64,000 nt of DNA, from assembly GCA_030674185.1 (NCBI GenBank), contig JAPXFY010000031.1, positions 39,027,532-39,091,531 of the forward strand, read 5' to 3'. The translations under genes and the position numbers were made by a program. The stretch is from Monoplex corrugatus. Taxonomy: Eukaryota > Mollusca > Gastropoda > Littorinimorpha > Ranellidae. Every line of letters begins with the position of its first letter. The stretch's first letter is position 1. Below, one piece after another: positions 5,129 to 54,784 of the stretch. Below the pieces are notes generated by a model, which did no database searches, was not told the DNA's origin, and saw only the letters and a program-made list of their open reading frames with translations.

Positions 5129-5251
5129 TTAACCTTTTGATTCCCACACCCTGTCCACCAACTGCTAAAACTTAACCCTTTGACTCTCGCACCCTATCCA
5201 CCATCTTCCTGTAGGAAACTCGTGGATAGGGTGAGGGAGTGAAAGGGTTAA
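5129..5251. mobile_element. Pal-TTAA MITE copy a (short form)
   Basis: Bounded by TTAA (5129-5132 and 5248-5251). The outer half-module is followed by an internal TTAACCCTTTGACTC arm whose reverse complement (GAGTGAAAGGGTTAA) ends the element. The centre is the hairpin turn near 5206-5222. The right outer module is missing, so this copy is asymmetric. Confidence 0.8.
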
Positions 5252-7431: not shown

Positions 7432-7469
7432 GTAAGTCTTTACAAGTCGCTTGTTCCTTGTTTGGAGTT

Positions 7470-8014
7470 GCCCCCTGTGGGGATGCCGGGGGCTCTTTCA
7501 GTATAAATAGTATCCACACCTTCTGGACATTCTGTGCTAGAAATGTCTTCTTTTCTGTCACTCTCTTTGTTTGTTTCTTCCTCCTTTGCTTTCTGTCATT
7601 TCTTCCTATCATTTTCTGCCTTACTGGTCCACTCACTGTATGTTTTCCATAAAGTCTTACGTATTTTTTCTTAGAATTGATAATTGGGTACATGTATTAA
7701 GTGCATTTTTGGCTCTAGGGAGGTGAGATATGTGAAATCAGTTTTAGGTAATTTGGCCCGGTTTTGTATGTTTTGGTGTCCTTAGGTATGCTTAAATTTG
7801 TATTCAGGTGTGTTTTTTTAAATCCTTGTGTGATAAACTGGATGGAATGGTCAACGCCAGGGCATGTCCTTAGATTATGTGCGCGAATGCATTGATATGT
7901 GTACTTAATTTTTTTTTTTTTTTTTTTTTTCCTTTGAAGTTTTGTATGTTTTGAAGCGGTTATAGCCCTGATATGGCTGTACGCAGTCAGCTGGGCTTTA
8001 AACAACAATAACAA
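7470..8014 (+). mobile_element. R540 retroposon, near full length
   Basis: The 5' end begins at a CCCCTGTGGGG hairpin and the 3' end is CCTGATATGGCTGTACGC...AGCTGGGCTTTAAACAAC followed by an (AACA/ATA)-rich tail. A 10-bp direct repeat, gtttggagtt, flanks it (7460-7469, 8015-8024), which supports retroposition. No coding frame, and no tRNA A/B boxes at the 5' end. The 3' AGCC-loop-GGCT stem is conserved in all copies in the window and may be the reverse-transcriptase recognition site. It lies in the third visible intron of the UIF-like gene. Confidence 0.8.
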
Positions 8015-14937: not shown

Positions 14938-15495
14938 CCACATGGGGATGCTGGGGCCTCTTCAGAATAAATAATATCCCTACCTTCTGGAAATTCTGTG
15001 CTAGAAATTTACTCTATTGTGTCGTGCTATTTTGTTTCTGCCTTGTTTCTTTGCTTTCTGTCATTTTTCCCCTATCATTTTTGCTTTGTTGGTCCCTTCA
15101 TCTGTTTGTGTTTGATAAAGTCGTACATACTTTCTCTTAGGATTGATGATTGGATACATGTATTGACTGGGTTTTTGGCTCTAGGGAAGTGAGATATGTG
15201 AAAGCAATTTTAGGTAATTTAGGCCTGTTTTTTATATATGTTTTAGTGTCCTTAGTTATGTTTCAATTTGTATTCAGGGTATGTTTTTAAATCCCCTGTG
15301 TGATAAATTGGATGGAACAGTCAACGCTAGAGACATCTCCTTAGATTATATGTGTGAATGCGTTGATATGTGTACTTAATTTTTTTTTCCTTTTTATTTT
15401 ACCTATTGAAGTATTGTGTATGTTTTGAAACTGTAAATAGCTGTGATATGGCTCTAAGCAGTCAGCTGGGCTTTGAACAAAAAGAACAACAGCAA
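14938..15495 (+). mobile_element. R540 retroposon inserted in the minisatellite
   Basis: Starts at CACATGGGGATGCTGGGG and ends at GCAGTCAGCTGGGCTTTG plus an AACAAAAAGAACAAC tail. The array string agcaaagcactgtt is present on both sides (14924-14937 and 15496-15509), consistent with a target duplication, although the array would repeat this string anyway. Full length, about 550 bp. Confidence 0.8.
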
Positions 15496-15850: not shown

Positions 15851-16435
15851 TCCTGCTGATTACCCTGAAATAAAAATCAGAATATTGTATCGCATTTTTC
15901 ATGCATTTTTCAATAACATTACCATAACACTGCAAAATGTACTGCTGTGAGAGCAGGACTACATACTGACCACGCATTGTACTGCTGGAGCAGTTCCACC
16001 AAAGATGTCTACGCAAAATTATAATATGTGACACATGAGCGTCCAACTGTCCACTTCTGAAGAAATGTGGCTTGTCAGTTGTAGTGTCTGCCCATCAAAT
16101 GTTAGCTTTGTTGGACAGGACACATTGTCTGTATTGAAGACATCCCAGAGATGCTCGTCTATGAGGAATTAGAGCAAGGACACCACAAGCTGTGAAGACT
16201 GCTAAAGCAATACCAAACTCTCTGAATGCCGCCTCGTCAGCTGTGGTATCCACATCACCAACCGCAAACACATAGCCTGAACAAAGTGCGCTGAAGACAG
16301 CAATGTGCTGGGACACAGTCACATTTTAACAGCACCGAACAGCTGCTGTTCAACAGACCAGGGACTAACAGAAGTAAGGTTCTTTTCCATGCAATAGTTA
16401 CTGAAATGTGTGTCCAGGATTGGCCTCAATCTCAC

Positions 16436-16606
16436 TTACCTTTGACTCCGCACCTATGCATCAACTGCAAAAACTTAACCTTGATTCCTCACCTGTCCAG
16501 CTTCTGCAGGAAGCTGGTGGATAGGGTGAGGAAATCGAGGTTAAGTTTGCTTGCTAGCATGTTGGAATTGCTGGATGCTGGGACAGGTGCGGAGTCAAAG
16601 GGTTAA
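16436..16606. mobile_element. Pal-TTAA MITE copy b
   Basis: Begins TTAC (16436-16439, degraded TTAA) CTTTGACTCC and ends GGAGTCAAAGGGTTAA (16603-16606). Internal TTAA steps lie either side of a central palindrome built on agcttctgcaggaagct. The left outer arm is the short type (aactgcaaaaacttaa) and the right is the longer ttgctagcatg type. Confidence 0.85.
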
Positions 16607-16871
16607 GACTCACACCAGGCACTGAAGACTAGTATGCCTACTTATCCATCAGATTGAGCCCACCATCACCATAACCTTGTTAATTTCATTGCTGCAATGC
16701 ATTGCCATTGTTTGTCCCATTTCAGTCCCGTGATCAGGGTATCCGCAAAAATTGCTTATATTGGTGAATTGAAGATAAAGTAACGTTTGGGCCAAAAGGA
16801 TATATTCACTCAGATTTCACAACAACAAAAAATTGTCAGTTTTGGAGAGTTTAAGCTAAATGTCGTCAGGA

Positions 16872-17018
16872 TTAACCCTTTGACTCCCGCACCTTGTCCA
16901 CCAGCAGTCCTGTACTGTCCACCAGGCTAGCGAAGCGAAAATTTAATCTTTTGACTCCCTCACCCTAACCACCAGCTTTGTGCAGTTACTGGATTTGGTG
17001 TGGGAGTCAAAGGGTTAA
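16872..17018. mobile_element. Pal-TTAA MITE copy c
   Basis: TTAA at 16872-16875 and 17015-17018 with CCCTTTGACTCCC and GGGAGTCAAAGGG termini. The central palindrome is eroded: one arm of the inner hairpin is incomplete. Confidence 0.85.
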
Positions 17019-17126
17019 TATAGAAGATATTCACCCAGATTTCACAAGAACTGCCAGTATTGGGCTGTTAAAAATGTTCACCCAGATATTGCATCATTTG
17101 TCTCATGGTTGGCTTTCGGCCTTCGC

Positions 17127-20797: not shown

Positions 20798-20984
20798 TTA
20801 ACCCTTTCACTCCCGCACCCTATCCACCAGCATCCTGCATTGCCAACCGTGCTAGCAAAACCTTAACCCTTTGATGCCCTCATCTTATCCACCAACTTCC
20901 TACAGGAAGCTGGTGGATAGGGTGAGGGGTCAAGACTTAAGTTTTTGCAGTTTGGTGGAAAGGGTGCAGGAGTCAAAGGGTTAA
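20798..20984. mobile_element. Pal-TTAA MITE copy d
   Basis: TTAA at 20798-20801 and 20981-20984. Left outer long arm (catcctgcattgccaaccgt, tgctagcaaaacc), internal TTAACCC, central hairpin at ttcctacaggaagc, then a right outer arm of the short (gttttgcagtttgg) type. The arms are of different types, so the copy is a mosaic. Confidence 0.9.
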
Positions 20985-21068: not shown

Positions 21069-21376
21069 TTAACTCTTTGACTCCCGCATCCAGTCCACCA
21101 ACTGCAAAAACTAAACCCTTTGACTTCCTGCACGCTGTCCACCAACTGCAAAAACTGAACCCTTTGACTTCCTGCATGCTGTCCACCAACTGCAAAAACT
21201 TAACCCTTTGACTCCTGCACCTGTCCACCAACTGCAAAAACTTAACCCTTTGACTCCCTCACCCTATCCACCAGCTTCTTGATAGGGTGAGGGAGTCAGA
21301 GGGTTACGGTTTTGCTTTGCTAGCATGGTTGACAATGGAGGATGCTGGTGGACAGGGTGCGGGAGTCAGAGGGTTA
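21069..21376. mobile_element. Pal-TTAA MITE copy e with repeated outer arms
   Basis: TTAA at 21069-21072 and TTAC at 21373-21376. The left side holds four successive short outer arms, each ending ccaccaactgcaaaaact and each restarting with (T/A/G)AACCCTTTGAC. An inner palindrome with one arm partly deleted and one long right arm follow. The arm repetition at TTAA-like joints is the clearest sign of modular growth. Confidence 0.9.
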
Positions 21377-21626
21377 CAGTGCGTTCTTGTGATGTTGTGT
21401 CAGGATGTTAGTGAGAGTACGTGCATGATGGTAAATAAGTGAAAATAGTGAGTATGTGTTACATGTATATTTCATCTATTTATTTCTGTACTGTAGAATT
21501 GTAAATGCTCAGAGCACTGTTAGGTGCATTATAAATGTACATTACGATTAGTAGGCCTATTGTTCTGTTTCTGCACTTCGTATCAAGTTTTGTTTTATCT
21601 GATGCTGAATTAAGGTCACAGTGACC

Positions 21627-26856: not shown

Positions 26857-27367
26857 CAGTGGAAACCTGATATAACAGGGATGATGGGACCAAATCAAAA
26901 TCCCTGTTATATCAGATCCCTGTTATATCAGATATCAAGGGAAATAAGGACTGATCAACTAACTCTTGATCTAGGCCTAGATCTGGTCTGGTGTAAGTGT
27001 GCAGTAAGCTTACAAACTGAATGATGGCGCAGTCAGTCACTGACTCAGTGGCCTCAGGCCTACACGCTTGCGCGCGCATCACGCTCGCATTGCGAAGCGT
27101 TCTTTCAGTGTACAGTACACAGTATACTAAGGCTAGCCTAGATCTAGATCTAGGCCTACTGCGTGGCGTGCTGAGTCTAGGCCTAGGCCTTTCTGCTGCA
27201 GAGCCCGTCTCGGCATCCCTGCTATAACCGATCGAGCCCTCTTGTCTCCCTGTTATTGCCGATAAGTTTTAATAGAGACAAAGAGGAAGAAAAAATGGGG
27301 ATTGAAAAAAGCCCTGTTATATCCGGATTCCTGTTATAACCGGTCCTGTTATAAATGGTTTCCACTG
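26857..27367. mobile_element. Tigger/pogo-like MITE, 511 bp, TA target
   Basis: The left end CAGTGGAAACCTGATATAAC and the right end GTTATAAATGGTTTCCACTG are inverted repeats. TA flanks both sides (26855-26856, 27368-27369). Subterminal CCCTGTTATA(T/A) strings repeat near both ends. Removing the insert with one TA restores the reading frame of the surrounding LINE, which confirms the boundaries. The interior carries palindromic GATCTAGGCCTAGATC-type sequence. Termini of this CAGTGGAAcC type are known from Tc1/mariner-superfamily (pogo/Tigger) elements. Confidence 0.88.
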
Positions 27368-29173
27368 TATTTCCAAACCAAAATCCTGAATGCCTCTTCT
27401 TCAAGAGAACTCTTTACAACCATGAATCATCTCCTTGGCACACGAAAAGATTTACCTCTCCCAACAAAACACACAAATGAAGAACTCCCATCTGTATTCT
27501 CCAAGTATTTCACCACCAAAATACAAACTCTTCGTGACAGGCTTGACAGGACACCCTGTCAACCATGCCCACCTGACCCTTCCTTCTCTGGCACACCTCT
27601 TACTACTTTTACCCCAGTCTCACAAGAAGAAATTCTCAACACAATCAGATCCATGTCGTTCAAAACCTGCGAACTGGATCCTCTTCCAGGTTCTCTCTAC
27701 TCTGACTGTCTCCCTACTCTCCTCCCATTCATCACTGACATCATCAACACTTCTCTTCAAACTGGAACTGTCCCAGATTCTTTCAAGTCTGCTATTGTTC
27801 ACCCTCTCCTCAAGAAATACAATTTAGACCCAAATGAACTGAAAAATTACCGGCCTATCTCTAATCTCTCTTTCTTGTCAAAACTCATCGAAAAAGTTGT
27901 CCTCAACCAGCTGAACTCTCACCTGTCTGCCAACAATCTTCTCAATCCTTTCCAGTCAGCCTACCGCCAGTGCCATAGCACTGAAACTGCCCTGCTACAC
28001 ATTCTCAACAATCTCCTCCTTGCAACTGATACTGGCAAAGTCTCTCTCCTCACACTCCTTGATCTGTCTGCAGCCTTTGATACCATTGATCATGGTATTC
28101 TCCTTTCTAGACTTCATCATACTTTTGGCATCTCTGACATTGCTCTCTCCTTTTTCACTTCATATCTGTCAAACAGAAAACAAACTGTTCTCATTAATGG
28201 CACTTACTCTCAACCTGCATGCCTGACCTGTGGTGTTCCACAAGGATCTGTCCTTGGCCCTGTTCTTTTCACTCTTTACACCTCCCCCCTGTCCACCATC
28301 ATCAACTCCCACTCTACAAAACACCACTTCTATGCTGATGACACCCAACTTCTAGACAGTGACACACCAGACAATATACAGCGCCTCTTGACTCGCACCA
28401 CTGAGTGTTACTCGGACATTAAGAACTGGATGACGTTCAACAAACTTCAGCTTAATGATGACAATACAGAAGCTATCCTCATTGGCACCTGTCAGAAACT
28501 TTCTCAGCTGCCTCCTCTTTCTCTCCCATTATGTAACACATCAGTCCCAATTTCTGATTCAGCTAAAAACCTTGGTGTCTGCATTGACTCTACCCTCTCC
28601 ATGAACAACTTTGTTTCTCAAACTGCCAGATCTTGCTACTATCACCTCCATCGTATAAGCTTGATCAGGAAGTATCTCTCTGTGGAAACAACTGCAAAAC
28701 TCGTTCTCTCCTTCATAATGTCTCACATTGACTATTGCAATTCACTCCTGTCTGGTCTTCCTGCCTCCACCATTCACATCCTACAGCGCATTCAAAACAA
28801 TGCTGCACGCCTTGTACTCAAAAAGAAAAAAGCTGACCACATATCTCCTCTCCTGGCACAACTTCACTGGCTCCCTGTATCAAAGCGCATACAGTACAAA
28901 CTAGACACCATGTGCTACAAAAGCCTCAATAACGCAGCCCCCGATTACCTGTCAAGCCTACTTGAGATCTATGTTCCCTCACGTATCCTCCGCTCTGCCT
29001 CCGATCCTCTGACTTTTCGCTTTCCACGCACCAAGCTCAATACCTATGGTCCACGAGCCTTCTCTGTTTCTGGTCCACTTTCCTGGAACAAACTTCCTCT
29101 CTCTGTCCGTCAGCAACCTACTTTTGTCTCCTTCAAGTCCGCTCTCAAAACTCACCTTTTCTCCTCTGCATAA
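27368..29173 (+). CDS. LINE reverse transcriptase (CR1/L2-like), 3' part of ORF2
   Basis: About 600 codons without a stop. Conserved RT blocks appear in order: NYRPISNLSFLSKLIEK (about 27845), the catalytic aspartate block DLSAAFDTIDH (from 28061), GVPQGSVLGP (28232) and the FYADDTQL active-site block (YADD from 28331). After them come an HIDYCNSLLSGLP region and an HWLPV plus LSWNKLP C-terminal region typical of CR1/L2-group elements. In life the protein nicks target DNA and reverse-transcribes its own RNA at the nick. The endonuclease part is missing here, so this copy cannot move by itself. The upstream coding part is separated by the MITE at 26857-27367. Confidence 0.93.
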   Translation, partial: YFQTKILNASSSRELFTTMNHLLGTRKDLPLPTKHTNEELPSVFSKYFTTKIQTLRDRLDRTPCQPCPPDPSFSGTPLTTFTPVSQEEILNTIRSMSFKTCELDPLPGSLYSDCLPTLLPFITDIINTSLQTGTVPDSFKSAIVHPLLKKYNLDPNELKNYRPISNLSFLSKLIEKVVLNQLNSHLSANNLLNPFQSAYRQCHSTETALLHILNNLLLATDTGKVSLLTLLDLSAAFDTIDHGILLSRLHHTFGISDIALSFFTSYLSNRKQTVLINGTYSQPACLTCGVPQGSVLGPVLFTLYTSPLSTIINSHSTKHHFYADDTQLLDSDTPDNIQRLLTRTTECYSDIKNWMTFNKLQLNDDNTEAILIGTCQKLSQLPPLSLPLCNTSVPISDSAKNLGVCIDSTLSMNNFVSQTARSCYYHLHRISLIRKYLSVETTAKLVLSFIMSHIDYCNSLLSGLPASTIHILQRIQNNAARLVLKKKKADHISPLLAQLHWLPVSKRIQYKLDTMCYKSLNNAAPDYLSSLLEIYVPSRILRSASDPLTFRFPRTKLNTYGPRAFSVSGPLSWNKLPLSVRQQPTFVSFKSALKTHLFSSA

Positions 29174-29423
29174 AATCCTGACCTCACTCAATCCCCTCTG
29201 CAGCCTGTCTCCACTCGGAGGGGAATCACATTGTAATATATATTTGTATATAATATGCTCTCTATAATTTTCCATTGCTTTTATTCTTTTTCCCCATTTA
29301 TAGCCATGTGTAAGTGTGTGTGTGCGCACGTGCGTAAGTGTATGTTCGGCGCTTAGATTTGATTTTTATCAAGATTTTGCGCTATATAAATATTGTAATT
29401 ATTATTATTATTATATTATTATG

Positions 29424-29975
29424 AGGATGCCAGGGGCTCTGTCATATATGAATAGTATTCCCACCTTCTGGAAATTCTGTGCTAGAAATTTCTTCATTTC
29501 TGTCATTCTCTTTTGTTTCTGCCTTGTTTCTTTGCTTTCTGTCATTTCTTTCTATCATTTTCTGCCTTGCTGGTCCATTCACCTGTGTGTGTTCGATGAA
29601 GTCTTGCATACTTTCTCTTAGGATTGATAATTGGGTACATGTATTAAGTGCATTTTTGGCTCTAGGGAAGTGAGATTAGGGAAGTGAGATATGCGGAAGC
29701 AAATTTAGGTAATTTAGGCCAGTTTTTGTATATGCTTCAGTGTCCTTAGTTATGTTTAAGTTTGTGTTCAGGTATGTTTTTAAAATCCCTTTTGTGATAA
29801 ATTGGACAGAGTGGTCAATGCCAGGGGCATCTCCTTAGATTATGTGCACAAATGCATTGATATGTGTACTTAATTTTCGTTTTCTTTTTTTTTTTCCCTG
29901 TTGAAGTATTGTGTGTTTTGAAATGGTTATAGTCTTGATATGGCTGTACACAGTCGACTGGGCTTTAAACAGTAA
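29424..29975 (+). mobile_element. R540 retroposon inserted at the LINE (TTA)n tail
   Basis: Begins ATGAGGATGCCAGGGGCTCT right after the LINE's ATTATT tail and ends GCTGGGCTTTAAACAGTAAC. Full length. The insertion into or beside the A/T-rich LINE tail suggests a preference for such targets, or template continuation. Confidence 0.8.
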
Positions 29976-30467: not shown

Positions 30468-30805
30468 TCTACCTGACTGTGAACAGGTACCTAACTTACT
30501 TCACAGTCATGGAAGGTAAAGCAACGAGGGAGAGGAGGTGAGTACCGCTCATTCAACCCTTAGACTCCCGCACCCTATCCACCCACTGCAAAAACTTCGC
30601 TCTTTGATCCCCTGTCCCTATACTGCAGGAAGCTGGTGGATATGGTGAGGGAGTCAAAGAGTGAAGTTTTTGCTTTGCTAGCATGGTTGACAATGCAGGA
30701 TGTTGGTGGACAGGGTGCGGCAGTCAAAAGGATTAACGCTGACCCTTGGAGAACAGTTGAGGTCTCTACCACCTCACTCCCTGACAACCTCAGGATTATA
30801 TGACA
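30468..30805 (+). mobile_element. Dispersed SINE-like repeat split by a Pal-TTAA copy
   Basis: The left part (gaacaggtacct...ggaaggtaaagcaacgaggg) and right part (gttgaggtctctaccacc) match the uninterrupted relative at about 33220-33370 and partly 44820-44880. The Pal-TTAA element lies exactly between them. Confidence 0.7.
30552..30736. mobile_element. Pal-TTAA MITE copy f, nested in a SINE-like repeat
   Basis: Left end TTCA (30552-30555) ACCCTTAGACTCCCG and right end GTCAAAAGGATTAA (30733-30736). The inner palindrome is reduced, and the right outer arm is the long ttgctttgctagcatggttg type. Confidence 0.85.
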
Positions 30806-30898
30806 ACCTTTACTTTTTTTTTAATGTGTATATATCTATGTATATATCTATGTATGTATCTATACCTGTTTTATGTTTTGAAGTCGAATATTTCAGTT

Positions 30899-31453
30899 AC
30901 CCCCCGGGGATGCCAGGGTCTTTTTCAGTATAAATAGTATCTCCACCTTCTGGAAATTCTGTGCTAGAAATTTCCTCTTTTCTGTCACTCTCTTTGTTTC
31001 TTCCTTCTTGCTTTGCTTTCTGTCATTTCTTCCTATGATTTTCTGCTTTGCTGGTCCATTCATTTGTATGTGTTTGGTAAAGTCTGATATACTTTCTCTT
31101 AGGATTGATAATTGGGTACATGTATTGAGTGCACTTTCAGCTCTAGGGAAGTGAGATATGTGGAAGCAGTTTTAGGTAATTTAGGCCAGTTTTTAATGTA
31201 TGTTTTGGTGTCCTTACATATGTTTAAATTTGTCTTCAGGTATGTTTTTTAAATCCTCTGTGTGATAAATCGGACGGAGTTTTCAATGCCAGGGGCATGT
31301 CCGTAGATTATGTGCGCGAATGCATTGATATGTGTACTTAATTTTCTTTACCTTTTTTTTCCTGTTGAAGTATTGTATATGTTTTGAAACGGTTATAGCC
31401 CTGATATGGCTCTACACAGTCGGCTGGGCTTTAAACAAAAATAACAATAACAA
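30899..31453 (+). mobile_element. R540 retroposon flanked by a 48-bp direct repeat
   Basis: Starts at CCCCCCGGGGATGCCAGGG and ends GTCGGCTGGGCTTTAAACAA plus an AATAACAATAACAA tail. The flanks 30851-30898 and 31454-31501 are 48-bp direct repeats with four mismatches, much longer than the 10-bp duplication at 7460. Confidence 0.85.
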
Positions 31454-33219: not shown

Positions 33220-33375
33220 ACCCGCTGTGAAATCGTTCCTTTCCCTGTTCAGGGTCAGGGAAGTAAAAGCAGTGAGGGAGAGGAGATGAGCACCGCTCTC
33301 ATAATGCTGGACTCTGAAAGAAGTTGAGATGTCTACCACCTCACTCCTCTACATTGTCCAAGTTATGGGACAACC
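33220..33375 (+). mobile_element. Dispersed SINE-like repeat, uninterrupted relative of 30468-30805
   Basis: Strings ggaagtaaaagcagtgaggg, gagatgagcaccgctctcat and tgtctaccacctcactcc match the split copy and give the approximate pre-insertion sequence. Confidence 0.65.
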
Positions 33376-35574: not shown

Positions 35575-35767
35575 TTAACCCTTTGACCCCTGCACCTTAT
35601 CCACCAACAGCAAAAACTTAACCCTTTGATTCCCTCACCTTATCCACCATCTTCCTGCAGGAAACTGGTGGACAGGGTGAGGCAATCAAAGGGTTAAGTT
35701 TTTGGTTTGCTAGCATGGCTGGCAATGCTGAATGCTAGTGGACACGGTGCGGGAGTCAAAGGGTTAA
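35575..35767. mobile_element. Pal-TTAA MITE copy g
   Basis: TTAA at 35575-35578 and 35764-35767. Short left outer arm, inner palindrome around ttcctgcaggaaact bounded by TTAA steps, long right outer arm (tttgctagcatggctggcaa). It abuts the SINE-like copy that follows. Confidence 0.92.
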
Positions 35768-40117: not shown

Positions 40118-41083
40118 AACAAAAGGAGACTGCTATTACTATTGTCGTTTACAGTCCAGCTGACTGTGCAGAGCCATATCAGGGCTATAAGCCTTTCAAA
40201 ACATACACAGTACCCCATTCAAAAAAAGAGGACACCTGGAAAAGAAAATTAGAAAAGTACACATATCAATACATTTGTGCACATAATCTGAAATAGGCCC
40301 CTGGCATTGACCATTCTGACCAATTTATCATCATCAGAAGGTTTAAACAAATAAACCTGAATACAAATGCAAAGATAACTAACAACACTAAAACATGTAA
40401 AAACTGGTCTAAATTAACCCATAGCTTCACATTTCCTTAAAGCCAAAAAACACTTTATACGTGTACCAAATGATCAATCCTAACGGACGCATGTGAGACT
40501 TATTGAACACATACAAGTGAACGGACCATAACAACACTAAAACATGTAAAAACTGGTCTAAATTACCAAAAATAGCTTCACATTTCCGCCAAGCCAAAAA
40601 TGTACTTTACATATGTAGGCCTACCCAATGACCAATCCTATCAGAAGCATGGAAGGCCTTTACAGAATACATGCAGGTAAATGGACCAGCAAGACAGAAA
40701 ATGATAGGGAAGATGACAGAAAGCAGAAGAGCATGGTAGAAACAGAATGACAGAAAAGAGGAAATTTCTAGCACAGAATTTCCTGAATGGGGGTTGGGGT
40801 ATATTATTTGTCCTTTTGACTCCTGCACCCTATCCAACCAACTGCAAAAACTTAAAGCCTTAGACTCCTTCATTCTATCCACCAGCTTCCTGCAACCCTT
40901 TGACTTCCTCATCCTATCCACCAGCTTCCTGCAAGAAGCTGGTGGATAGGGTGATGGTGTCAATGGATTCAGTTTTTGCTTAAATAGCATGGTTGATAAT
41001 GTAGGATGCTGGTGGACAGGGTGCGGGGCAGGAGTCAAAGGGTTATGTTGAAAGAGTCCCCAGCATCCCCATGGGGGTAACAG
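40118..41083 (-). mobile_element. R540 retroposon, - strand, interrupted by Pal-TTAA copy h
   Basis: The 3' end (tttacagtccagctgactgt, then agccatatcagggctataag) is at the left. The interior was partly duplicated: two versions of the aacactaaaacatgtaaaaa and agcttcacatttcc segments occur at 40385-40440 and 40530-40585. The 5' end is at about 41083 (ccccatgggggt). Copy h splits the 5' part. Confidence 0.8.
40807..41046. mobile_element. Pal-TTAA MITE copy h, nested in R540
   Basis: Left TTTG (40807-40810) TCCTTTTGACTCCTG, right GTCAAAGGGTTAT (TTAT 41043-41046). Other R540 copies read tactatttatactgaaagag at this place, so the target was TTTA/TTAT rather than exact TTAA. Inner arms are duplicated (two ttcctgcaa-type arms). 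Confidence 0.85.
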
Positions 41084-43475: not shown

Positions 43476-43667
43476 TTAACCCTTTGACTCCCACACCTGT
43501 CCACCAGCATCCTGCTTTTCCAACCATGCTAGCAAAGCAAAAACTTAAGTCTTTGGCTCCCTCATCCTATCCACCAGCTTCCTGCAGAAAGCTGGTGGAC
43601 AGGATGTGGGAGTCAAAGGGTTAAGTTTTTGCAGTTGGTGGACAGAATGCGGGAGTCAAAGGGTTAA
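43476..43667. mobile_element. Pal-TTAA MITE copy i
   Basis: TTAA at 43476-43479 and 43664-43667. Left outer arm long (ccatgctagcaaagcaaaaa), right outer arm short (tttttgcagttggtgg), inner palindrome around ttcctgcagaaagc, with TTAA at the right inner joint. Confidence 0.93.
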
Positions 43668-44036: not shown

Positions 44037-44337
44037 CACTATGTTGTTGCACAGTCTACATCTTGGGTGGGCGTGCACGCTGCATGTTTTCATATTTCCA
44101 CAAGCCACCAGACACTCACGTGACTTACAGGATCTGTAACCCTTTGACTCCCGTACACTATCCACCAGCTGCAAAAAAACTTAACCCTTTGACTCCCTCA
44201 CCTTATCCACCAGCTTCCTGAAACTGCAGGAAGCTGGTGGATAGGGTGAGGGAATCAAAGGGTTACAATTTTTGTTTTGCTTTCATGGTTGGCAATGCAG
44301 GATGTCGGTGGACAGGGTGCAGGAGTCAAAGGGTTAA
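44037..44337 (+). repeat. Left arm of a 300-bp inverted repeat
   Basis: Comprises about 100 bp of unrelated sequence (cactatgttgttgcacagtc...gacttacaggatctgtaa) plus Pal-TTAA copy j. Matched in inverse by 45026-45326 across its full length. Confidence 0.9.
44136..44337. mobile_element. Pal-TTAA MITE copy j
   Basis: Left GTAA (44136-44139) CCCTTTGACTCCCG, right GTCAAAGGGTTAA (44334-44337). The inner hairpin has an extra gaaact between its arms. Right outer arm is long. Confidence 0.92.
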
Positions 44338-44344
44338 TGTGCAA

Positions 44345-44900
44345 ATGTGATACCTTGCATACGCACACACATATACAGGGTTTAGGTACTGGCAGGTCTG
44401 CACGTGCTGACCAGAGAGATGGGAAAAATCTCCATCTTTAACCCTCCAGGGAAGGTTAAGGGTGGAATTTCCACTCAGATGGGATCCTTGTGACTATCCC
44501 AACCCTCACAGAACGTCTTGCAGACCTTCCTCAATTTGTTGAATTTATTCAAGAAGGATTCACAGCTCTCAAAGAATCTCATACACGCTCTAGCCAAATC
44601 TACAGACTGGGGTTGAACTCAAGACATTCAGGTCTTAAAGGTCCATGGCTCTGTCAGCTCGCATGGATTCTCCTGACCATTTCTACAGTACTTTTTCCTT
44701 TTTATATTTTGTGTTTGTACTGTGTCAGACTTGACCCCGTGCGATCGAATTAGAAAGTGGGAGCTAAACCTTACGCCAACCAAGCCTCAGAAAACACTTG
44801 CACATGCAGTCTCCCGTCCACCCGTTTGTGAATGGGTACCTGACCCTCTTCAGATTTGGGGAAGGTAAAGCTGAAATAGACAGAACATGGGTGCTATCCT
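44345..44900 (+). mobile_element. SINE-like dispersed repeat between the inverted arms
   Basis: Includes cacccgtttgtgaatgggtac and ggggaaggtaaagc, shared with 30468-30550 and 33230-33260. No coding capacity is supported. A 15-base poly-A lies at 44919-44933. Confidence 0.5.
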
Positions 44901-44984
44901 TATTCTGTTTCAATCGAAAAAAAAAAAAAAAGGATTTTTATCACCTGATCCTTCTGTGACCCTTCAGCTATAGGACAAGTTTTA

Positions 44985-45437
44985 GTTATTTTTTCTCCCG
45001 CACCCTATCCACCAACTGCAAACAGTTAACCCTTTGACTCCCTCACCCAATCCACCAGCTTCCTGCATTGCCAACCATGAAAGCAAAGCAGAAACGTAAC
45101 CCTTTGATTCCCTCACCCTATCCACCAGCTTCCTGCAGTTTCAGGAAGCTGGTAGATAGGGTGAGGGAGTCAAAGGGTTAATTTTTTTGCAGCTGGTGGA
45201 TAGTGTACGGGAGTCAAAGGGTTACAGATCCTGTAAGTCCTGTCAGTGTCTGGTGGCTTATGGAAACATGAAAACACGCAGCTTGCACGCCCACAAAAGA
45301 TGTAGACTGTGCAACACAACATAGTGCAGGAAGCTGGTGGATAGTCTGAGGGAGTCAAAGGGTTAAATTTTGCTTTGCAAGCATGGTTGACAATACAGGA
45401 TGCTGATGGACAGGGTGTGGGAGTCAAAAGGTTAAAA
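44985..45437. mobile_element. Pal-TTAA compound copy k
   Basis: Several modules in series: a partial short outer arm, TTAA (45026-45029) with a long arm, an inner palindrome with cctgcagtttcagg centre, then short arm and gggttac. About 95 bases of foreign sequence follow (45230-45326), then another set of right-hand modules ending GTCAAAAGGTTAA at about 45435. The foreign block is the inverse of the flank at 44037-44135. Confidence 0.85.
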
Positions 45438-45729: not shown

Positions 45730-45922
45730 TTAACCCTTTTGATTCCCTCATCCAGTCCACTAGGTACAAAAACTTAACCCTTTGACTCCCTCACCCTATC
45801 CACTGGTTTCCTTCAGGAAGCTGGTGGATAGGATGAGGGAGTCAAAGGGTTAAGTTTTTGCGTTGCTATCATGATGACGATGCAGGATGCCAGTTGATAG
45901 GGTGAGGGAGTCAAAGGGTTAA
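45730..45922. mobile_element. Pal-TTAA MITE copy l
   Basis: TTAA at 45730-45733 and 45919-45922, plus internal TTAACCC and GGGTTAA joints either side of the hairpin at ttccttcaggaagc. One of the clearest examples of the nested layout. Confidence 0.94.
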
Positions 45923-46185: not shown

Positions 46186-46701
46186 AGCCCAGCCAACTGC
46201 GTAGAGCCATATCAGGGCTACAGCAGTTTCAAAACATACACAATACTTAAAACAGGAAGAAAAAAAAATGAAAAGAAAATTAAGTACACATATCAATGCA
46301 TTTGTACACATAACCTAAGGAGACACCTCTGATGCTGACGAATGTCTGATTTATCATATAGGGGATTTAAAAAACATATCTGAATACAAATTTAAATTTG
46401 ACTAAGGACACTAAAACATACATAAAAATGGGCATAAATTACCTAAAATAGCCTCCGCATATTTCATTTCCCTAGAGCCAAAAATGCACTCAATACATGT
46501 ACCCAAGTATCAATCCTAAGAGAAAGTATGTAAGACTTTATCGAACACATACAGATGAATGGACCAGCAAGGCAGAAAATGATAGGAAGAAATGACAGAA
46601 AGCAAAGGAGAAAGACAGTGACAAAAAAGAGGAAATTTCTAGCACAGAATTTCTAGAAGATGAGGATACTATTTATACTGAAAGAGAACCCCCACAGGGG
46701 T
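46186..46701 (-). mobile_element. R540 retroposon, - strand, full length
   Basis: 3' end at left (gagcccagccaactgcgtag, agccatatcagggctacagc), 5' end at right (ctgaaagagaacccccacag). Uninterrupted copy; at the site corresponding to Pal-TTAA copy n it reads cactcaatacatgtaccc. Confidence 0.85.
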
Positions 46702-47223: not shown

Positions 47224-47392
47224 TTAACCCTTTGACTCCTGCACCCTGTCCACCAGCATCCTGCACTGTCAAACAAGCTAGTAGAGCAAAAAACTGAACC
47301 CTTTGACTCCCTCACCTTATCCACCAGCTTCCTGCAAGAAAAGAGTTAAGTTTTTGCAGTTGGAGGACAGGGTGGGGGAGTCAAAGAGTTAA
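47224..47392. mobile_element. Pal-TTAA MITE copy m
   Basis: TTAA at 47224-47227 and 47389-47392. The inner palindrome has lost its right arm (ttcctgcaagaaaagagttaag), so the hairpin is broken. Confidence 0.88.
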
Positions 47393-50674: not shown

Positions 50675-51192
50675 ATTATTATTTTTGTTTGAAGCCCAGC
50701 TGACTATGTACATACACTTCAACAAATAAAAAAAGGAAAGAAAATTAAGTACACATATCAATGCATTCACATACATAATCTAAGGAGATGTCCCTGACCC
50801 TGACCACTCCATCCAATTTATCGCACAGGGGATTTACAAAAACATACCCGAATACAAATTTAAACATAACTAGGGACACGAAAACATATATCAAAACAGG
50901 CCTATATTACTTAAAATTGCTTCTGCATATATATCTCGTTTCCCTAGAGCCAACAATGGACTTAATACATGTACCCAATTATCAATCCTAAGAGAAAGTA
51001 CGCAAGACTTTATTGAACACATACAGGTGAATGAACCAGCAAGGCAGAAAATGATAAATAGTAAATGACAGAAAGCAAAGGTAGAAGAAAGAAACAGAGT
51101 GACAGAAAAGAGGAAATTTCGAGCACAGAATTTCCAGAAGATGGGGATACTATTTATATTAAAAGAGCCTCCGGCATCCCCACAGGGGGAAA
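50675..51192 (-). mobile_element. R540 retroposon, - strand, full length
   Basis: 3' end tttgaagcccagctgactat at left, 5' end ggcatccccacagggggaaa at right. Contains the intact TTAA empty site ggacttaatacatgtaccca (about 50958-50977) corresponding to Pal-TTAA copy n. Also contains gaatacaaatttaaacataac, the single-copy ancestor of the array at 52992-54085. Confidence 0.88.
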
Positions 51193-51795
51193 CCCCACAT
51201 ACAATACAAAATATTGTATATTATTATTATTACAGACGTCACAGAAGGTTCAAATTCCTGTTATACATTTTGTACTGTGGATATCATTTGAATTAAAAAG
51301 TTGTAATGAAATTTATTCTCATGTGTCTGAATTTTTTCAATTTATATGAATCCTTTCATAAATGACAGTGAATATATAATATATATACATATACAAGATA
51401 CTATATACAAAACATACAGTTCCAGCTTTTCATTATGGCATCTCCAAGCTCATATCTACAGATACATCAGTAACATATAATCAGATTAACCATTAATACA
51501 TACATATGCTAGTAACATACACAATTTCATGAGCAGAATACACCATTCACAGTAACAATGTAAATGCATTAACAAGTATAATAACAATGCAAACACATTA
51601 ACAAGTATAATAAGTATATATTCATAAAATATATATTCACATGGATAACAAACTAAACATACCTATTATCACATACAATATATACATATAAAAGAATTTA
51701 TCATAAAATCTATACAAACATACTGTCATCATAATCTCCATATACCGGTATATTAAAACAATAACCTCAACTACAACATTAATCATCATCTTAAA
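51193..51795. other. Unassigned AT-rich stretch
   Basis: TATA-rich words and one small direct repeat (aacaagtataataa..at near 51570 and 51600). No gene signal. Confidence 0.4.
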
Positions 51796-52991: not shown

Positions 52992-54085
52992 AAAAATGGT
53001 TACAACATAACAAGAAAGAGGACATTGAACACAATGAGATATACAAGCTGATGAATACAAATGTTAACATAAGAAGGGACATTGAACACAATGAGATATA
53101 CAAGCTGACGAATACAAATGTTAACATAAGAGGGACATTGAACACAATGAGATATACATAGCAATGTATGAAGGATAACAAATGTATAACAAACAAGTAA
53201 CAAGGGGTCATTGAACACAATGAGATATACAAGCTGATGAATACAAATGTTAACACTAAGACGGGACACTGAACACAATGAGATATACAAGCTGACGAAT
53301 ACAAATGTTAACATAAGAAGGGACACTGAACACAATGAGATATACAAGCTGACGAATACAAATGTTAACATAAGAAGGGACACTGAACACAATGAGATAT
53401 ACAAGCTGACGAATACAAATGTTAACATAGAAGGGACATGAACACATGGATATAAACTGACGAATACAATGTTAACAAGAGGGATTGAACACAATGAGAT
53501 ATACAAGCTGACGAATACAAATGTTAACATAAGAAGGGACATTGAACACAATGAGATATACAAGCTGACGAATACAAATGTTAACATAAGAAGGGACACT
53601 GAACACAATGAGATATACAAGCTGACGAATACAAATGTTAACATAAGAAGGGACACTGAACACAATGAGATATACAAGCTGATGAATACAAATGTTAACA
53701 TAAGAAGGGACATTGAACACAATGAGATATACAAGCTGATGAATACAAATGTTAACATAAGAAGGGACACTGAACACAATGAGATATACAAGCTGATGAA
53801 TACAAATGTTAACATAAGACGGGACACTGAACACAATGAGATATACAAGCTGACGAATACAAATGTTAACATAAGAAGGGACATGAACACAATGAGATAT
53901 ACAAGCTGACGAATACAAATGTTAACATAAGAAGGGACATTGAACACAATGAGATATACAAGCTGACGAATACAAATGTTAACATAAGAAGGGACATTGA
54001 ACACAATGAGATATACAAGCTGACGAATACAAATGTTAACATAAGAAGGGACATTGAACACAATGAGATATACAAGCTGGATCAT
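52992..54085. repeat. 57-bp minisatellite born from R540, about 19 copies
   Basis: Unit: gacgaatacaaatgttaaca, taagaagggaca(t/c)tgaaca, caatgagatatacaagct. It aligns to the single-copy R540 segment gaatacaaatttaaacataa, ctagggacacgaaaacatat at 50849-50890. One irregular unit lies at 53155-53215 and one degraded unit at 53420-53480. Because 57 is a multiple of three, long hydrophobic frames are open on the - strand without being genes. Confidence 0.95.
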
Positions 54086-54137
54086 ATCTCCTACAATGGC
54101 TCCTGCATATCACATTTCCTCAGAGCCAAAAAGACAC

Positions 54138-54334
54138 TTAACCCTTTGACTCCCGCGCCCTCCCTGTTTACCAGCAACCTGACTGTCAACCATGCTAGCA
54201 AAGCAAACAGTTAACATTCTGACTCCCTCATCCTATCCACCAACTCCCTACAGGCAGCTGGTGGATAGGGTGAGGGAGTCAAAGGGCTAAGTTTCAGCAG
54301 TTGGTTGATAGGAAGCGGGAGTCAAAGGGGTTAA
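54138..54334. mobile_element. Pal-TTAA MITE copy n, nested in R540
   Basis: TTAA at 54138-54141 and 54331-54334, in the sequence gacac-TTAA...TTAA-tacatgtaccc. The empty version ggacTTAAtacatgtaccc is present in the R540 copy at 50675-51192. Left outer arm long, right outer arm short, inner hairpin around actccctacaggcagct. Confidence 0.96.
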
Positions 54335-54784
54335 TACATGTACCCAATTATCAATCCTAACATAAAGTATATAAGACTTTGTACAACACATACAGGTGAA
54401 TGGACCAGAAAATGAGAAAGGAAAAACATGACAGAAAGCAAAGAAGAGAGGCAGACACAAAGAGAGTGACAGAAAAGAGAAAATCTCTAGCACAAAATTC
54501 CCAGAAGGTGGGGATACTGTTTATACTGCTAGTCCCCAGCATTCCCACTGGAGATGTTAGAAATAATACAATATCACATAAAATATTACAATAGCACAGA
54601 TTACTTACAGAATGAAGTATCTGCCTTCTATAATCCTTTCGTAGTGCACCGTTCAGGCTGATGGTCTTTGATTACGATAAATACGATAAAATTTATATTT
54701 TGTGAATTATCTATTAATCAGACAATTAGAATATAGCCAATTTAAGAGAGAATGTGCATGTATGGCTCATACATATTTGTTTCC

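Follow-up and report, generated by a model that had tools for sequence, protein, structure and literature searches.

A 64-kb stretch of the Monoplex corrugatus genome (the window: contig C31, 39027532-39091531; genome 3.018 Gb) contains 14 copies of a 193-bp element in which an inner palindrome (I) lies between two unequal, inverted outer arms (S and L). Our preferred reading, held with moderate confidence and drawn from sequence comparison, is that this is a non-autonomous MITE of the piggyBac superfamily with a composite build, in which I was placed at the TTAA of the outer element by transposition, that is, by nesting.

The copy that drew attention to the family, at 45730-45922, has the order TTAA-S-TTAA-inner-TTAA-L-TTAA over 193 bp. 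The majority consensus of 15 rows aligned in one orientation is TTAA-S(39)-TTAA-I(72, a palindrome)-TTAA-L(66)-TTAA, likewise 193 bp. An earlier sequence-only reading had listed 13 further positions with this layout. All 13 proved to hold copies, complete or damaged, but several depart from the plain layout: 5129 lacks L, 16872 and 47224 keep part of I, S is present four times in 21069, an inner arm is duplicated in 40807, and 44985 is a copy within a copy. The copies, with the modules of the flagged one, are as follows.

45730-45922, + strand: flagged composite, S-I-L, 193 bp, TTAA at both ends.
45734-45773, + strand: S arm of the flagged copy, 40 bp, between TTAA 45730-45733 and TTAA 45774-45777.
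45778-45849, no strand: I of the flagged copy, 72 bp, between TTAA 45774-45777 and TTAA 45850-45853.
45854-45918, + strand: L arm of the flagged copy, 65 bp, between TTAA 45850-45853 and TTAA 45919-45922.
5129-5251, + strand: S and I without L, TTAA at both ends, followed by GTT and then unrelated DNA.
16433-16606, + strand: S-I-L copy with a shortened inner part.
16872-17018, - strand: L plus a fused I/S remainder, the inner right arm lost.
20798-20984, - strand: composite (reads L-I-S on the + strand).
21069-21377, + strand: S repeated four times in tandem (period 43-44), followed by I and L.
30552-30736, + strand: composite, with a diverged paralogous empty site near 33300.
35575-35767, + strand: composite, 193 bp, TTAA at both ends.
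40808-41046, + strand: composite with a duplicated inner arm, flanked by TTGT and TTAT (copy 40807).
43476-43667, - strand: composite, TTAA at both ends.
44136-44337, + strand: composite whose left flank is shared, inverted, with 45226-45315.
44985-45435, no strand: older composite broken at the centre of its inner palindrome, holding a second composite at 45026-45225; the piece 45316-45435 is part of this locus.
47224-47392, - strand: composite with most of the inner right arm lost.
54138-54334, - strand: composite inside a dispersed repeat, TTAA on each side.

The copy at 5129-5251 has either lost L next to a TTAA or used an inner tip as a working end. Copy 16872 is bracketed by two occurrences of a 25-bp flank sequence, 92% alike: 16802-16826, 45 bp ahead of the copy, and 17027-17051, 8 bp beyond it.

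The piggyBac-type tip CCCTTTGACTCCC is common to S, I and L, and both ends of the consensus carry it, so that the element has terminal inverted repeats with a CC[C/T]T tip. The three modules are homologous to one another over their first ~28-36 bp (CCCTTTGACTCCC[G/T]CACCCT[A/G]TCCACCA); in the consensus, S resembles an internally shortened L, whereas I looks like a mirrored version of the initial 36 bp of L and has two complete tips, each adjoining a TTAA. A 17-nt version of the tip, TTAACCCTTTGACTCCC, has 50 matches in the window at up to 3 mismatches against 0.08 expected from shuffles, a frequency far above chance; 49 of the 50 lie within copies and one (30332) outside. The inner hairpin had been described as perfect. 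This is true of the consensus, whose inner 80 bp, both TTAAs counted, form a perfect palindrome, but single copies differ at 2-7 of 34-36 arm positions (8 copies with a complete inner part), the flagged one at 5 of 36. The outer arms, once joined, were likewise expected to form a palindrome. Perfect complementarity does extend 8 bp to each side of the central TTAA and resumes at the shared outer tip, but the arms are unequal, S being 39 bp and L 66 bp, a difference of 27 bp. Folded as single-stranded DNA, two copies gave z values of -12.2 and -14.4.

A protein search with the reading frame through copy 40807 gave two candidates, both with E above 1, and an Rfam search gave no match at gathering scores. 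One of the tip 13-mers occurred in two open-licence papers, which to judge from their titles deal with other subjects. An exact tip match in one viral contig was dismissed as chance; the stretch around it resembles a bacterial recombinase gene. No sign of gene conversion between the inner arms of one copy was seen in 8 copies: arms of the same copy differ by 0.144 on average and arms of different copies by 0.147 (permutation 0.38).

The composite moves as a unit and duplicates TTAA where it lands. Copy 54138 has TTAA on both sides, and seven paralogous empty sites have one tetranucleotide at that place (3 TTAA, 3 TCAA and 1 TTTA). In the window, empty sites paralogous to this insertion with a single TTAA are found at three positions.

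50962-50965, no strand: empty site, single TTAA.
29644-29647, no strand: empty site, single TTAA.
7697-7700, no strand: empty site, single TTAA.

Copy 40808, inserted at a different place in the same dispersed-repeat family, corresponds to a single TTAT in six of seven empty paralogues, so that one window copy used TTAT; for copy 30552, the one diverged empty paralogue has ATAA. Of 23 simple composites outside the window, 22 are bounded by TTAA on each side and one by ATAA and TTAA; these 23 were kept from 40 loci as simple, with both arms full and both ends unmasked. Divergence from the consensus is 10.3% for S (52/505), 8.1% for I (71/874) and 9.2% for L (78/847), counted in 14 of 15 copies (row 40807 dropped) with gapped positions excluded. 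Such near-equal values argue that one old structure was copied as a unit. Independent self-insertion at each locus was ruled out by the similar divergence of the three modules together with the neighbours of the inner centres described below, all 39 of which are flanked by L and S. We have very little doubt that the element moves by piggyBac-type TTAA mobility, and the whole S-I-L composite is almost certainly the main moving unit.

The dispersed repeat itself, about 450-500 bp long, occurs at 7463-7949, 14943-15412, 29422-29907, 30896-31380, 40241-40792, 46260-46686, 50707-51197 and 54024-54525, and several of its copies adjoin long minisatellites with differing units. The 57-bp units of the array at 53020-54079 match a 38-bp segment of the repeat, as though the repeat had given rise to the array.

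Genome-wide, a 28-bp pattern for the centre of the inner palindrome matched 36,547 places at up to 2 mismatches, its reversed control 0, and the 40 best full-length places are spread over 25 contigs. The surroundings of the centre were determined for the first 40 exact matches along contig C1 (0.6-9.1 Mb), of which one was masked on the left. At all 39 informative places the centre has L on one side and S on the other; in 36 this is plain (at L097, S is recognisable by its tip alone), and in three extra inner-like units precede S. Thus, a self-nested element whose inner member also stands alone in other DNA was not what we saw: the sequence-only reading had looked to solo inner palindromes for support, and there was none among these 39 centres or in the 64-kb window. 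Neither S-I-S nor L-I-L occurred among the 39.

The other form that this reading called for, an uninserted outer palindrome, does exist. The outer-only centre (S-TTAA-L) was found at 612 places at up to 2 mismatches over 20 bp, against 3 for the reversed control. Among 20 places fetched, comprising all 15 exact ones and five with one mismatch, 18 join oppositely oriented S and L at TTAA (15 of 15 exact, 3 of 5 one-mismatch), with additional units next to the centre in L055 and L056. The two other places are an S-S join (L068) and a member of a related family with the tip CCCTTTGGCTGCCGGCAC (L067, G000:C9:6674569-6674868), in which two tandem arms, TTAA and two tandem inverted arms follow one another. 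Eight of the 18 S/L joins have TTAA at both outer ends, the others being altered or truncated at one end at least. The reading had also held that, if neither uninserted outer palindromes nor solo inner ones occurred anywhere, the unit would be one fixed element with internal TTAA motifs; with outer-only copies present, that case does not arise. Two of them, L050 and L053, are 96.6% alike in different flanks, which argues that an outer-only form has moved independently. In a tree built from the outer arms (16 outer-only elements and 36 composites, short-arm copies left out), the outer-only labels require 14 changes against 13.8 when shuffled, and 36 of the 48 inner branches are unsupported; this scatter on a weak tree suggests that some outer-only copies may be composites minus I. 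The outer-only copies may therefore be survivors of the old host, products of a clean loss of I from composites, or perhaps both. Inner centres far outnumber outer-only centres, in counts made with patterns of different length (28 and 20 bp). A random sample of 20 x 10 kb (80,616 of 200,000 bases N), too small for an estimate of copy number, contained five clusters: one was degraded and the other four were composites or arrays, and neither an outer-only element nor a solo inner palindrome was among them.

Several loci carry composites with repeated arms, (L)n-I-(S)m, in which each repeat ends at TTAA or a near variant. The array loci were drawn from 19 genome matches picked for score or visible repeats, plus the region of the flagged copy, a choice under which their share is not a genome frequency. 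L010 has eleven L units followed by I and S units, L011 has four L units and L017 at least six; L014 and L015 have four S units each, as does window copy 21069, and, being 99% alike, the two loci are perhaps alleles or a duplicate contig. A second L was present in 6 of the 40 loci picked by inner centre. Units are more alike within an array than between loci (L, 0.89 versus 0.82; S, 0.90 versus 0.83), where the within-array set includes L008, which is several separate pieces and not one array; L017 alternates two unit types. The higher likeness within arrays and the alternation in L017 point to local duplication as the likely cause of the arrays.

The palindrome is also prone to damage. Part of it is lost in copies 16872 and 47224, and at 44985-45435 the DNA that interrupts the centre of the inner palindrome is an inverted copy of the 44.04-44.31 kb stretch. 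At the joint of this locus, the first 38 bp of L fit the inner type better (37 of 38 positions versus 34), with TCCTGCA common to both at the switch; we read the joint as a switch between inner-type and L sequence. Seen over 44040-45435, the locus contains an inverted duplication of about 260-310 bp at the exact centre of the older inner palindrome, possibly left by a broken hairpin whose repair copied a neighbouring stretch.

In the account that we prefer, the central TTAA of a related MITE with unequal arms (S-TTAA-L) would have received I, a palindromic member of the family with TTAA on each side, once or a very few times and long ago. Since then, S-I-L would have been moved whole by a piggyBac-type transposase supplied in trans, which would use the outer tips, cut at TTAA and paste into a new TTAA, duplicating it at each landing, while the inner tips would normally go unused as ends. 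The arms would later multiply in tandem and in TTAA phase to give (L)n-I-(S)m, and the inner part could be lost, sometimes exactly at TTAA. Nesting is supported by the excess of outer-only centres over the control and by the two complete TTAA-adjoining tips of I, which make it look like an inserted family member. It is weakened by the lack of solo I at the places surveyed, by the great excess of inner over outer-only centres and by the tree scatter, which looks as if I had been lost many times; in addition, the common TTAA-phased tandem duplication could itself yield layouts of the kind TTAA-tip-TTAA-tip. The proposal of self-nesting thus keeps its core, namely that I sits exactly at the central TTAA of an outer element that also exists uninserted, but solo I was not found at the places surveyed, and what spread is the composite.

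A first alternative is an origin with no transpositional nesting at all. TTAA-phased duplication of an end, followed by fold-back mirroring at the self-complementary TGCA in CCTGCAGG, would produce the 193-bp unit, and the outer-only copies would represent later loss of the hairpin, for example by slippage between the flanking TTAA direct repeats. Tandem arm arrays are common in the examined loci, with units more alike within arrays, and such an origin would also fit the 0 of 39 count for solo inner palindromes, the scatter of outer-only copies on the tree and the frequent palindrome damage (16872, 47224 and the centre of the 44985 locus). Against it, L050 and L053 show that at least one outer-only form has multiplied on its own, and the 15 exact 20-bp centres with intact TTAA would demand many exact losses, an argument tempered by a bias, given that the search pattern itself demands TTAA. 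We regard this origin as a real possibility, though not a likely one.

The genome is rich in candidate sources of transposase. At least 116 matches to PF13843, all above the cut-off, were scored from 4,338 first-look candidates, mostly with open frames of 500-700 aa and several in near-identical copies, so piggyBac elements may be recently active here. Because of the TTAA footprint and these many genes, we propose that a piggyBac-type transposase acts in trans. The single-tetranucleotide empty sites, the TTAA at both ends in 22 of 23 composites and the PF13843 genes all bear out the piggyBac-type mobilisation suggested from the termini, whereas the search for a transposase source with matching termini came back empty: none of 10 transposase loci checked (flanks of about 1.6-1.9 kb per side) has the element's tip on both sides, which weakens the account of a nested piggyBac MITE. 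At three of the ten a one-sided tip site lies within 3 mismatches (at the C23 locus within 2, adjoining TTAT), and two have good TTAA-bounded tips of other kinds. The window also contains, at 27266-29173 (+), a 635-aa open frame, probably that of a LINE, in which a reverse transcriptase domain (PF00078) is recognised; its best organism-named match is a protein of the periwinkle Littorina saxatilis (58% identity), and other matches reach 83%.

Alternatively, the four tips might be inherited from an autonomous piggyBac whose ends each contain a pair of transposase sites (S followed by I at the left end, L followed by I at the right), comparable to the multi-site ends of piggyBat, the MITE consisting of both ends joined mid-way. 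The many piggyBac genes would suit this origin, as would what is described of known ends: those of piggyBac are unequal, 35 and 63 bp, and both needed (PMC7351741), and the left end of piggyBat has three sites at a spacing of 44 bp (PMC11707139). An added site is reported to bring piggyBac a roughly two-fold gain in activity (PMC7351741), and piggyBat to be inactive when its ends are made equal (PMC11707139). The S and L arms (39 and 66 bp, 27 bp apart in length) and the 43-44-bp repeat of S resemble these figures in spacing only. However, matching tips on both sides are found at none of the 10 transposase loci checked, the internal units repeat TTAA and the very tip, neither of which a binding site needs, and there are outer-only elements with single tips. 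We consider inherited tips quite improbable.

Spread as a palindromic satellite or by segmental duplication is hardly credible for the bulk of the copies, given the scatter over 25 contigs, the unrelated flanks and TTAA-bounded ends of 22 among 23 simple composites and the paralogous empty sites, even though the local clustering in the window, the inverted duplication and the tandem arrays have that look.

The closest precedent is CMITE-IN of Acropora corals, a piggyBac-type MITE that occupies the central TTAA of another element bounded by TTAA and forms with it a composite that is itself mobile (Wang et al. 2010, PMC2872659); the same source reports tandem MITE arrays and CCCTTT tips. In both cases the TTAA at the middle of the host holds a MITE and the composite moves, and CMITE-IN is a true precedent for a TTAA MITE in a central TTAA moving as one. 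Its outer parts are given as 23-bp direct repeats unrelated to the insert, whereas S and L are unequal, inverted and homologous to I, and its copy number is estimated at ~70, in contrast to 36,547 inner centres here. The insert here is, moreover, a full palindrome, and the arms multiply on both sides in TTAA phase. What sets our element apart from CMITE-IN is the relatedness of insert and host, a host made of an unequal inverted pair, the huge amplification and the two-sided, TTAA-phased arm multiplication. We found no report of a self-nested TTAA MITE family like S-I-L in the open-licence literature searched.

According to PMC10813416, CCCTT is the commonest tip of animal piggyBac elements and TTAA their usual duplication. 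PiggyBac/TTAA MITEs in general share with our element the TTAA duplication, the CCCTT tip, the short non-coding sequence and the many copies, here a uniform 193-bp consensus with 36,547 inner centres; they have two tips, whereas the element here has four, together with internal TTAAs. An excised piggyBac can insert into its own TTAA sites (PMC3952818), so self-targeting is chemically possible, but as reported there autointegration within one molecule yields inversions or deletion circles and not a member nested in a member.

A broader reading, tentative and in our view rather unlikely, is that of a TTAA-cassette transposon, in which TTAA-jointed modules would be stacked, swapped and dropped, extra tips by the unequal ends would act as added transposase sites, and self-nesting and arm multiplication would have made the MITE successful. 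More sites are not always better, since removal of the third left site of piggyBat is reported to raise activity about six-fold (PMC11707139). If the cassette reading is true, the element would be a natural counterpart of engineered multi-site piggyBac ends. Because the nested form, the uninserted host form, tandem-armed derivatives and many piggyBac genes occur in one genome, each step can be counted and tested, and the family bears on how MITEs with new structures arise. It also provides natural variants for a question raised by engineered piggyBac and piggyBat, namely how unequal ends and added sites affect transposition.
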